From Ruminococcus bicirculans (ex Wegman et al. 2014) (GTDB taxonomy: Bacteria; Bacillota; Clostridia; Oscillospirales; Ruminococcaceae): a DNA stretch of 64,000 nt. Both the position numbers and the translations under genes were made by a program. The notes below the pieces were generated by a model. The model had not been told where the DNA came from. It worked only from the letters and a program-made list of their open reading frames with translations, and made no database searches. Of the stretch, positions 1-32,800 are shown in pieces (position 1 is the first letter of the stretch; the number at the start of each line of letters is the position of its first letter). Location: positions 1 to 64,000 of the forward strand of contig NZ_HF545616.1 of the NCBI RefSeq assembly GCF_000723465.1, read 5' to 3'.

Positions 1-1362
1 ATGGATTCCTTTAATGACGTATTTCAGGAGGTCCTGAAATATTGCCGAAACTGCAAAAGTATCAGCGAGCCGGGATATAACAAATGGATAAAGATACTTG
101 AACCGATGAAGCTTGAAAACAATGTGGCTTATTTGCTCACTGATTCTGATTTTTCAAGAGATATCACTATGAACGCCTATGAGAATCTTTTAAAAGAAGC
201 TTTTCTCAATACTTTGGGCTTTGAGGTAGATATAAAAATACTTGTTAAAGACAAAGAAGAAGTTAATGAAACTGAGGAAAAGGATATAGAAGTCAAGGTG
301 GCTGACTTTTCTGATGAAGAAAACAACAATCTTACCTTTGATAACTTTATCAAAGGTAAATCGAATGATCTTGCCTATGCTTTCAGCACGGCTGTCGCAC
401 ATAAGTATGACGAGGATCAGAAAACACCGTCTAACACAAATACTATATTCAACCCTCTCATCATATACGGTGATTCGGGACTTGGAAAAACTCACCTTAT
501 GAAAGCTATCGAGCATGAGGTAAAGAAAAATCACCCTGAGCTGAAAATTATTTACACCACAGGTGAATCCTTTATAAACCAGCTCGTTAAAGCTATCGAG
601 TCAAAGGAAACTAATAAATTTCATGATAAATACAGGAATGCCGACTATCTTATGGTAGACGATATACAGACCATTGCAGGCAAGGAGCGTATGCAGGAAG
701 AATTTTTCCATACCTTCAATGATCTTTACAATGCAGGCAAGCAGATAGTTCTCACATCGGATATTGCACCGTCAAAGATATCGAAGCTTCAAAACAGGAT
801 ACTTACCAGATTTTCACTGGGCGTACAGGTAGACGTTACACCGCCTGATTTTGAAACAAGAATGGCTATCGTAAAGAAAAAGGCTGATATGCTGGACTTA
901 CAGCTTTCTGACAATGTCGTAAGGATAATAGCAGAGAAGATAAAGACGAACATACGTCAGCTTGAGGGAACTGTAAACAAAATAAAGGCTCTTACCATTT
1001 ATACAAATGAAAGCCCGTCCATATCTATGGCTCAGAGGATAATCAAGGAAATAATCATTGAAAATCACCCTGCTGAGATAACGGTTGACAGGATACTTCA
1101 GGAGGTAGCAGCGGCATTTGACGTTACTGCTGACGACATAAAGTCAACAAACAGACGTGCAAACGTATCCCTTGCAAGAAAAATAGCGATCTATCTCTTC
1201 AAGGACGTAAAGGGCATGACCTTTATACAGATAGGAAATGAGCTTAACAAAAATCATTCAACTATGACCATACACTATCAGGACGTTGTTAAAAATCTTA
1301 AAGAGAATAAACAGCTAAAAGATACCGTTGACGACATAATCAAAAACCTCAAGGACAATTAA
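1..1362 (+). CDS. dnaA: Chromosomal replication initiator DnaA
   Basis: DnaA binds origin boxes as an ATP-dependent filament and opens the DNA. The 453 residues give the usual four domains: domain I to about residue 80, a short acidic linker, an AAA+ core with Walker A GDSGLGKT (157-164) and Walker B YLMVDDIQ (216-223), and a helix-turn-helix domain IV from about 365. The C-terminal DnaA signature is atypical: where most bacteria have GGRDHTTV, this protein reads NKNHSTMT (416-423). That fits the divergent boxes downstream. The ATG is base 1 of the window, so its ribosome binding site and promoter lie outside. Family identity is certain; altered DNA specificity is inference. Confidence 0.99.
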   Translation: MDSFNDVFQEVLKYCRNCKSISEPGYNKWIKILEPMKLENNVAYLLTDSDFSRDITMNAYENLLKEAFLNTLGFEVDIKILVKDKEEVNETEEKDIEVKVADFSDEENNNLTFDNFIKGKSNDLAYAFSTAVAHKYDEDQKTPSNTNTIFNPLIIYGDSGLGKTHLMKAIEHEVKKNHPELKIIYTTGESFINQLVKAIESKETNKFHDKYRNADYLMVDDIQTIAGKERMQEEFFHTFNDLYNAGKQIVLTSDIAPSKISKLQNRILTRFSLGVQVDVTPPDFETRMAIVKKKADMLDLQLSDNVVRIIAEKIKTNIRQLEGTVNKIKALTIYTNESPSISMAQRIIKEIIIENHPAEITVDRILQEVAAAFDVTADDIKSTNRRANVSLARKIAIYLFKDVKGMTFIQIGNELNKNHSTMTIHYQDVVKNLKENKQLKDTVDDIIKNLKDN

Positions 1363-1369
1363 ACGGACT

Positions 1370-1675
1370 ATTTCAACATTTTCAACATAGTTTTCAACAA
1401 TTTTGTTGAATATCCGGACTTGGATATATAAAGCTTTGCGGAATGTTTTTCAAAACTTTGCACAATGAAGTTTAAACAATGGTGTTATAAAATAAAACAC
1501 CGATTTTCAGGTTTCAACATTTTTTGCGATAATAATAAACATTCAACAAACATTTTTTCAACTTTTTAAACACAAAAAAAGTTTTTGAAAACACAGTTGA
1601 AGTGATGTTAAAATAAACTTGAAAAGCAAAACAAGTCTGCAAAAGGCTTTGAATAACTTTTCAACCATTTCAACA
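1370..1675. repeat. Array of divergent DnaA boxes (TTTTCAACA type)
   Basis: Nine sites match the core TTCAAC: 1370-1378 (ATTTCAACA), 1379-1387 and 1391-1399 (both TTTTCAACA), 1404-1412 (minus strand, TATTCAACA), 1511-1519 (GTTTCAACA), 1540-1548 (CATTCAACA), 1555-1563 (TTTTCAACT), 1658-1666 (TTTTCAACC) and 1667-1675 (ATTTCAACA). Two pairs sit head to tail with no gap (1370/1379 and 1658/1667). Against TTATCCACA the consensus differs at positions 3 and 6. Their role as DnaA boxes is inferred from position, density and the adjoining trios. Confidence 0.8.
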
Positions 1676-1679
1676 CACT

Positions 1680-1725
1680 CTACTACTAATACTAATTTAA
1701 TATTGATTTATTTATATATTATCAG
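1680..1725 (+). other. DnaA-trio run and AT-rich unwinding element
   Basis: CTACTACTAATACTAA at 1680-1695 reads on the complementary strand (3' to 5') as GAT GAT GAT TAT GAT T, the trinucleotide pattern of DnaA-trios. It starts four bases after the tandem box pair at 1658-1675 and runs into almost pure AT DNA up to about 1725. This is the most likely site of initial strand opening and helicase loading. Confidence 0.75.
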
Positions 1726-1808
1726 AGCAAAAAATATAAATTTGAGAAATTCATATGTTGAAAAAACAAGAGTCAGATAAATGTAATTTTTTTAGAAAGG
1801 AAATTGCT

Positions 1809-2915
1809 ATGAAAATTCTGTGTAATAATGCTTCACTTTGCGGAGCAGTAACAAATGTTTCAAAAGCAGTGTCAGAACGTGCTGCACTTAAATCTCTTGA
1901 GGGAATAAAATTCAAGCTTGAAAACTCAATGCTGGAGCTTACCGGCTATGACCTTGAGATAGGTATAAAAACTGTTATTCCGGTAAAGAGCGACGATTCG
2001 GGAGAATTTATACTTAATGCAAGACTTTTTGCTGAAATGATAAGGAAAATGCCTTCTGAAGAGATCCTGATAGAGGTTTCTGAAAATTTTCAGGTAACGA
2101 TCTCAGGAGGAGTTACCACATTCAATATCCCTGCAACATCAGCAGAGGAATATCCTGCACTTCCTAAGAAAGAGGAAGAAAACAAGATAACTATCTCTCA
2201 GCCTGTTCTTAAGGATATGATAAATCAGACAAAGTTTGCCGTGGCTGTTACAGATCTCAAGCCTGTTCTTAAGGGCGAGCTTTTTGAGATCGAAAACGGT
2301 ACTCTTACTCTTGTTGCCCTTGACGGATATAGACTTGCTGTGAGATATGAGCCTATAAAGTATGACGGAAGTCTTAAATTCGTCGTTCCTGCAAAAACTC
2401 TCTCTGAAATAGCTGCACTTCTGGGAGATAATGACGAAGAAACAGCCTCCGTTTATCTCTCAAAAAATCATGTTGTGTTTGAATTAAACGGCTATCTTGT
2501 TTATTCAAGACTTATCGAGGGCGAGTTCCACCCTTATAAGTCAGCTATACCAACTACTTGCACAACTGAGGTCATTGTTGACAGGAAAGAGCTTATTGCC
2601 GCTCTTGAAAGAAGTTTGATACTTATAAGTGACAGAACACCGTCACCTGCAAGATGCTATTTTGAAAATAATTCTATAAAAATAAACTGCTCAACAAGCG
2701 TTGGAAAGATAACAGACGAGATAAAGGCTGATATAGCAGGTCCTGTTATCGAGATAGGCTTCAAGTGCAAATATCTTCTTGACCCTCTGAAGGTCATAAA
2801 GGAAGATAAGGTCAAATTGCAGATGAGCGGAAGTCTGCTGCCTATGAAGATAGTTCCGTGTGAGGGCGACGCTTATACTTACCTCGTTCTCCCTGTAAGA
2901 CTAGCAAAGGAATAA
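1809..2915 (+). CDS. dnaN: DNA polymerase III beta sliding clamp
   Basis: The ring-shaped clamp tethers DNA polymerase III to template. The 368-residue product has the usual beta-clamp length and three repeated clamp folds of about 120 residues. An in-frame ATG exists at 1755, but the start at 1809 is preferred: it follows AGAAAGGA at the right spacing, and [10 protein letters not shown] is the normal clamp N-terminus. The upstream in-frame stretch overlaps the AT-rich origin. Next comes yaaA after only four bases, so dnaN, yaaA and recF are probably co-transcribed. Confidence 0.98.
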
Positions 2916-32365: not shown

Positions 32366-32597
32366 AATTTTTCCTCCAATAATGAATATTGTAACTTTTC
32401 ATTCATATTTATTATAAGTTTAACATATTTTCATTCGTTTGTAAACAGCAAAAGCCTATTTTAAAACTTAAATACTTCACAAATTTTAAATTCGTTCATT
32501 GGTGAAAATGTAATAAATCCTCCCTATTTACTATAGAAGTACGAAAAATGAATAAATTACAAATGATTAAAAAACGGTAACAAGAGCTTTTTTGGAC

Positions 32598-32800
32598 AGT
32601 TGAAAACTACAGTTGAAAACTTTTGAAAATGTTGAAAACTATGTTGAAAATGTTTAAAACTCATGCTATAACAGCAATTTGGTGTTGAAAATAATAAAGT
32701 TTTCAACAATCGTCCGTTTTTTTACCCTTGTCTGTAACCAAAATGTAATCAAATCATTACATTGTGATATCCAAAAAAACGTACTTGAAAGAGTTGAAAA
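32598..32800. repeat. Second cluster of origin-type boxes (TTTTCAACA)
   Basis: Perfect TTTTCAACA sites lie at 32630-32638, 32642-32650 and 32683-32691 (minus) and at 32700-32708 (plus). TTTTCAACT sites on the minus strand lie at 32598-32606, 32611-32619 and 32792-32800. Weaker forms lie at 32621-32629 and 32651-32659. Nine sites in 203 bases is denser than the origin itself. Proposed as a DnaA-binding cluster away from oriC. Confidence 0.65.
32743..32762. promoter_or_regulatory. Palindromic operator candidate
   Basis: ATGTAAT-N6-ATTACAT, seven-base perfect arms, between the box cluster and the promoters of the ABC exporter. The regulator is unknown. Confidence 0.45.

Follow-up and report, generated by a model that had tools for sequence, protein, structure and literature searches.

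The known systems closest to the locus described here are those of DnaA. The classic DnaA box, written TTATCCACA or TTWTNCACA, occurs in E. coli and many other bacteria; the latter form, with one mismatch allowed, has been applied to C. difficile, and the DnaA residues R399, P423, D433, H434, T435 and H439 are described as base-specific and are termed conserved among all Firmicutes (PMC7561715). A variant is also in print for the Mollicutes, with the consensus TT(A/T)TC(C/A)ACA, which the word TTTTCAACA fits, and the same source discusses this word for phytoplasmas (PMC3322544). Origin opening has a described counterpart in the basal unwinding system of Bacillus subtilis, for which the rule given in PMC8287927 is a box with at most two mismatches lying within 16 bp of at least three DnaA-trios. 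Outside oriC, DnaA-box arrays are known as datA and DARS in E. coli, which also require a second protein (IHF, Fis), and as DnaA-box clusters (DBC) in B. subtilis (PMC5295017).

The DNA analysed here, called the window, is a stretch of 64,000 nucleotides at the start of contig 1 of Ruminococcus bicirculans, and it contains dnaA, dnaN and the gap between them. We read this gap as the Ruminococcus origin, TTTTCAACA as its DnaA box, and two conserved arrays outside oriC, built from this word, as sites with DnaA-linked regulatory roles, and we give this reading a probability of about 0.87. The open-access literature searched yielded no paper joining Ruminococcus with DnaA boxes and, for the TTTTCAACA word, yielded PMC3322544 on phytoplasmas.

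Boxes and trios between dnaA and dnaN

The features of the origin region are the following.

1-1362, forward strand: dnaA (NCBIfam DnaA equivalog TIGR00362, above cut-off)
1153-1272, forward strand: DNA-contact stretch of DnaA domain IV, located by alignment to B. subtilis DnaA
1370-1399, forward strand: oriC triad ATTTCAACA TTTTCAACA TAG TTTTCAACA, with spacings of 0 and 3 bp
1404-1412, reverse strand: box TATTCAACA
1511-1519, forward strand: box GTTTCAACA
1540-1563, forward strand: box-like nonamers CATTCAACA (1540-1548) and TTTTCAACT (1555-1563)
1595-1603, reverse strand: weak box-like nonamer ACTTCAACT
1658-1675, forward strand: tandem pair of boxes, TTTTCAACC ATTTCAACA, bordering the putative unwinding site
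1680-1694, forward strand: five DnaA-trios (CTA CTA CTA ATA CTA), 4 bp past the last box
1680-1760, forward strand: AT-rich putative DNA unwinding element, 82.7% A+T
1756-1764, reverse strand: exact TTTTCAACA upstream of dnaN
1809-2915, forward strand: dnaN (NCBIfam equivalog TIGR00663, above cut-off)

The TTTTCAACA word resembles the classic box in being a 9-mer repeated in the intergenic region beside dnaA, in occurring in several copies that include a tandem pair, and in the letters TT.TC.ACA, but its positions 3 and 6 are T and A, respectively. It stands two mismatches away from TTATCCACA, which places it outside a one-mismatch definition of the box, and one mismatch, at position 6, from TTWTNCACA (consensus from PMC7561715). 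At up to one mismatch the word has 102 matches in the window versus 32 expected. The preliminary description had counted nine nonamers with a TTCAAC core filling the gap; they do fill it, but there are ten between 1370 and 1675, eight on the forward strand (1370, 1379, 1391, 1511, 1540, 1555, 1658 and 1667) and two on the reverse strand (1404-1412 and 1595-1603), and the reverse-strand copy at 1756-1764 is an eleventh beyond 1675. The classic box is absent from the gap, as had been claimed: TTATCCACA does not occur there even at one mismatch, and of the five sites that appear at two mismatches three are the exact TTTTCAACA sites. The related claim that standard origin finders would miss this origin holds for a search with TTATCCACA at one mismatch, which returns nothing in the gap, and origin or DnaA-target searches of that kind pass over these sites; it would not hold for TTWTNCACA at one mismatch, nor for Ori-Finder, whose score draws on indicator genes and GC disparity as well and in which the box can be set by the user (PMC10225481).

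At the 3' end of the gap, a spacer of four bases (1676-1679) separates the tandem pair (1658-1675) from CTACTACTAATACTAA, which starts at 1680 with the five trios, and from AT-rich DNA (57.3% A+T for the whole window), in the order that the earlier account had given. The box at 1667-1675, the 4-bp spacer and the five trios fall within the rule of PMC8287927 when TTTTCAACA is taken as the standard box, at one mismatch per box of the pair, and outside it when TTATCCACA is, at three mismatches per box, the limit being two. As in B. subtilis, tandem boxes, a short spacer, trios and AT-rich DNA lie upstream of dnaN; the Ruminococcus boxes differ in being divergent, with those three mismatches each, and the two systems, the known one being marked by DnaA- and ATP-dependent strand separation, are likened by sequence. 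The region is supported as a putative basal unwinding system by its recurrence in the genus, where an in-frame run of at least five trios was found in 24 of 25 gaps, the sole miss (L027) being truncated by a contig end, and where a box core ends at most 10 bp upstream of the trios in 17 of 25 gaps and exactly 4 bp upstream in 16. Among 1000 shuffled controls, a run of at least four trios arose in 37, none of which had a box core in the 10 bp before it. DnaA domain IV, with its altered base-contact residues (see below), would bind the oriC triad and the tandem pair, and, if the B. subtilis system is a guide, a DnaA-ATP oligomer would run from the tandem pair onto the five trios and open the AT-rich DNA before dnaN.

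The box word and DnaA among relatives

A total of 181 dnaA loci were compared, namely 25 from the genus, 9 from near genera, 89 from the rest of the family and 58 from other families of the class. The genus loci represent 25 of the 26 genomes with a match (the match in G006 was too weak for dnaA), the family loci outside the genus 98 of 113 matched genomes, and the class loci outside the family 58 of 141; gap sequences were limited to 1000 bp at loci without a dnaN hit, and also for the exact-word counts. The search of related gaps that had been proposed as a check bore out the divergent nonamer, since TTTTCAACA is present in all 25 Ruminococcus gaps and TTATCCACA in none. Counted on both strands, the genus gaps hold 72 exact copies of TTTTCAACA versus 1.2 expected from dinucleotide shuffles, together with 11 copies of TTCTCAACA, 8 of TTATCAACA and 2 of TTTTCCACA. 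The nine gaps of near genera hold 10 copies of TTTTCAACA, 1 of TTTTCCACA and 0 of TTATCCACA; the 89 gaps of the rest of the family hold 138, 81 and 6, respectively; and the 58 gaps of other families hold 68 copies of TTATCCACA, 22 of TTATCAACA, 13 of TTTTCCACA and 10 of TTTTCAACA. From these counts by group, T at box position 3 is a mark of the family, and almost exclusive A at position 6 is a mark of the genus and its near relatives. The TTTTCAACA box thus appears as a late step in a visible series of changes and not as an isolated oddity, and the family offers a test case for DnaA and its box changing inside one bacterial family with the intermediates still present. The dnaA-dnaN gaps of three family members (L096, L101 and L117), each between 683 and 1346 bp long, hold 12, 14 and 16 exact copies of TTTTCAACA.

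Novelty at the level of the box is modest, since the word fits the Mollicutes consensus and is one mismatch from TTWTNCACA, and what is seen here is a lineage fixation within the range published for Mollicutes; it differs from the Mollicutes box as given in PMC3322544 in that position 6 is nearly only A in the 25 genus gaps (72 TTTTCAACA against 2 TTTTCCACA).

The DnaA protein is changed in residues expected to read the box. In R. bicirculans, R399 and H434 are kept while P423 is replaced by I, D433 by N, T435 by S and H439 by I (E. coli numbering), which sets it apart from classic-box systems at four of the six base-contact residues listed in PMC7561715. The same four positions are changed, and the same two kept, in all 25 genus proteins, with T, V, I or S at 423, N433 and S435 in 25 each, and I (24) or L (1) at 439. 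Outside the genus, D433N is found in 6 of 9 near relatives, 1 of 89 other family members and 3 of 58 other proteins; T435S and the loss of P423 are common throughout the family, and for Epsilonproteobacteria the view given in PMC5043019 is that variation at 423 leaves box choice unchanged. Of the 35 loci with N433, 28 have scorable boxes, and position 6 is only A in 25 of these, mixed in 3 and only C in 0, while loci without N433 divide into 38 with A, 41 with C and 43 mixed. At box position 3, A406 pairs with T (100 versus 8) and other residues pair with A (36 versus 6). In a tree built from DnaA outside domain IV for the 181 loci, parsimony places 6 changes for N433 and 7 for A406, and with so few independent changes descent explains much of the pairing between residue and box. 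The pairing of D433N with position 6 was therefore not counted as strong proof. Near relatives that retain D433 (L037, L040 and L041) show A alone at position 6 already, so that D433N cannot be its sole cause. The data are consistent with, but do not prove, a joint change of DnaA and its box.

A recurring word could belong to any DNA-binding protein, and the phased GTTAC repeats of the type A array (see below) suggest at least one further sequence-specific factor at that site, so TTTTCAACA might instead be bound by another lineage-specific origin protein, with DnaA acting on weak or classic boxes. We consider this very unlikely, given a gap without a classic box within one mismatch, a word that departs from the classic box at two positions with the intermediate TTTTCCACA present in the family, and a trio spacing, constant in those 16 of the 25 genus gaps, that is the one predicted from DnaA binding. 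The identification of the divergent nonamer as the DnaA box of this lineage, as first put forward, is supported by the conservation in all 25 gaps, the graded change at positions 3 and 6, the altered contact residues and the trio spacing, as well as by the skew and gene strands treated in the last section.

Two conserved arrays outside oriC

Beyond the earlier account, the same word forms two conserved arrays outside oriC, here called types A and B. The R. bicirculans genome holds 126 exact copies of TTTTCAACA versus 38 of the reversed word, and TTTTCAAC forms same-strand pairs, no more than 30 bp apart, at four places, namely oriC, 32.6 kb in the window, contig 1 near 1,555,7xx and, as a lone pair, 2,008,188; the reversed-word control gave 0. 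In each of the 29 genus genomes the pattern TTTTCAACA-3-TTTTCAACA at one mismatch has between 1 and 4 matches, again with 0 for the reversed control; the pair word is found in unrelated taxa as well, e.g. Vibrio and Bacteroidales (named genomes; 80 of 119 stretches listed). Sorting by eye divided the matches outside oriC into type A, type B and a few single ones, of which L226, L228, L231, L242, L244 and L255 were set aside on reading their sequence, and four further matches (G007:C23, G011:C9:272684, G012:C15 and G014:C73) were left out of the sorting. In L255 (contig 1 near 2,114,890) the coding-like TTTTCAACAACCTTTTCAATA recurs in G000, G011, G012 and G014, and with one variant letter in G007. 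An nhmmer search with types A and B against 275 loci gave, among the matches listed, many low-scoring ones to box cores, and the search was kept out of the counts.

32598-32708, reverse strand: type A box array (homologues sorted by eye and aligned)
32598, 32611, 32621 (TTTTCAAAA), 32630, 32642, 32651 (TTTTAAACA) and 32683, reverse strand, and 32700, forward strand: starts of the type A boxes
32577-32738: full extent of the composite type A element, with GTAAC pentamers at 32577 and 32734 bracketing the boxes
32792-32800, reverse strand: outlying box-like TTTTCAACT

Four of the type A boxes of R. bicirculans are exact TTTTCAACA, and the triad at 32630-32659 stands in the register of the oriC triad. 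At oriC this register (box, 0 bp, box, 3 bp, box) is found in 23 of 25 genus gaps, being absent in L011 and L012, and the abutting third box, which lies outside the search pattern, is present in 27 of 27 type A arrays and in 20 of 20 type B arrays found by the pair pattern. The shared word and register at oriC, type A and type B provide what is, at the level of sequence, the strongest argument that one protein may read all three, and the protein that reads the oriC register should be DnaA. Both arrays are clusters of the nonamer in DNA judged non-coding from ORF lists, and they are most likely DnaA-binding regulatory sites of the datA or DBC kind. They are new examples of the known DnaA-box clusters outside oriC, with a composite layout that was not met in the literature consulted, and for a major gut bacterial group they amount to two mapped, genus-wide arrays of a single word beyond oriC.

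Type A is present in 27 of 29 genus genomes and was not found in G006 and G025, which are 80% and 86% complete. In the alignment of the 27 loci 42 columns are invariant, and 26 of these, including a CTGTCC behind an outer box, do not belong to the searched boxes. GTTAC/GTAAC pentamers flank the array at about +68, +79 and +89 and at -88, -99, -110 and -121, in steps of 10-11 bp, and the +60..79 bin of the type A loci contains 32 of them versus a background of 0.58; R. bicirculans itself keeps just two close to the array. GGAC/GTCC words also bracket type A (window 32598-32708 plus 26 homologous loci). Under strict filters, at least 115 of 118 family genomes match the type A model R1, and the majority of these matches cover box cores alone; those of at least 50 bits were read as type A and, among the matches listed, belong to R. 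bicirculans, G010, G136, G078, G112 and G054, the last four lying outside the genus.

The neighbours of type A differ between clades: an ABC ATPase (Pfam) in R. bicirculans and, as named by eye in relatives, an alpha-galactosidase-like gene, the MurC or gyrA side, or a lipoprotein. In the eight genomes with dnaA and type A on one contig, the array is always on the dnaN side and 9 to 149 kb away. Drafts favour short distances in this comparison, and just two genomes escape the bias of short contigs, namely R. bicirculans (31 kb) and G001 (149 kb, contig of 3.69 Mb). Its role as a promoter element of one gene was considered and rejected, as the neighbours vary and the array points the other way with respect to dnaA in 2 of these 8 genomes.

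In R. bicirculans, type B is flanked on one side by a DUF6062 gene and on the other by an 86-codon small ORF (L003 1655-1915, contig 1 near 1,555,895), which is followed by RlmB. The R. bicirculans copy of the small ORF has no Pfam or NCBIfam match; the protein starts MxKGINKQIIEIKC and has, by eye, a hydrophobic C-terminal stretch. It was found in 28 of 29 genus genomes, with the type B array upstream in all 28 loci and 4 to 7 copies of TTTTCAAC in each, and in G023 the array is present by the pair pattern and the small ORF was not found, so that type B totals 29 of 29 genus genomes. The layout around the small ORF recurs, by eye, in the pair-found loci of relatives, the third gene differing in some. 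Trio-like runs in the type B flanks reach 4 in 3 of 20 loci and 5 in 2 of 20.

Type A is most likely a cis site that binds DnaA and would thereby limit or reset DnaA activity: copied soon after oriC fires, it would double the DnaA-binding capacity, and with a GTTAC-binding partner it may alter the nucleotide state of DnaA. Type B most likely makes the small ORF responsive to DnaA and adds DnaA-binding capacity, and DnaA may in this way time the small ORF. An alternative is that the distal arrays are passive, binding DnaA as leftover or titrating sites with no specific role. It draws on B. subtilis, where the early-initiation phenotype is strong only when six clusters outside oriC are removed jointly (PMC5295017), but the 42 columns of type A that stay invariant in 27 genomes while its neighbouring genes change, more than half of them outside the searched boxes, as well as a fixed spacing and flanking repeats that exceed what titration needs, make it rather unlikely. 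The regulatory reading, in a more specific form, is offered tentatively and at less than even odds: type A may be a DnaA-control element of the datA/DARS kind in a Gram-positive lineage, linked to oriC and with no fixed neighbours, at which DnaA would sit in the register of the oriC triad and fork passage would reset it with the help of a protein reading the helically phased GTTAC repeats; type B may link that signal to a small membrane-protein-like gene. The datA site is characterised by an IHF site in the array and by IHF-dependent stimulation of DnaA-ATP hydrolysis, and DARS by ADP-to-ATP exchange on DnaA. Like datA and DARS, type A is a chromosomal DnaA-box array, but it has GTTAC repeats in place of a known partner site, the likeness drawn here being one of layout. 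Compared with the DBC of B. subtilis as described in the review PMC5295017, which also lie outside oriC, the Ruminococcus arrays have a fixed triad spacing, genus-wide conservation and, in type A, phased GTTAC flanks. If the proposal is true, a conserved Gram-positive site working like datA or DARS would matter (context in PMC5295017).

Direction of replication and replicons

In the window GC skew is positive in 8 of 8 bins of 8 kb, and the forward strand carries 86% of the long-ORF length up to 32 kb. These observations fit replication leaving dnaA and running through the window, and argue against a replication start at the 32.6-kb array, which replication seems to reach from the dnaA side. 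The possibility that type A acts as the origin, or as an additional one, was also considered, the array being box-rich, AT-rich (73.6% A+T for 32525-32770) and linked to oriC; this is extremely unlikely and was rejected, since no trio run above 3 occurs in any of the 27 type A loci and the skew is already positive between dnaA and the array.

The two contigs of R. bicirculans comprise 2,240,877 and 727,623 bases, and its two chromosomes are thought to derive from recombination between rRNA operons (PMC5359413). Along contig 1, 17 samples of 20 kb each give a noisy skew profile. Of the 11 samples that reach to 1.47 Mb, 9 are positive, with negative values at 0.47 and 0.75 Mb, and of the 6 between 1.59 and 2.24 Mb, 5 are negative, with a positive value at 1.87 Mb. 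A skew change near 1.5 Mb of 2.24 Mb implies that the arms would be unequal. In the last 20 kb of the contig the values per 5 kb are -0.04, -0.03, +0.13 and -0.11. On contig 2 (727,623 bases), same-strand TTTTCAAC pairs within 30 bp were not found, and its start (L275-L277) carries genes that look housekeeping-like by eye (thiamine genes, pyruvate kinase and a pyruvate formate-lyase-like gene). Among the first 100 of the 126 exact TTTTCAACA sites, those on contig 1 are mostly on the reverse strand below about 1.8 Mb and on the forward strand above 2.0 Mb, and this strand preference may mirror the replichores.
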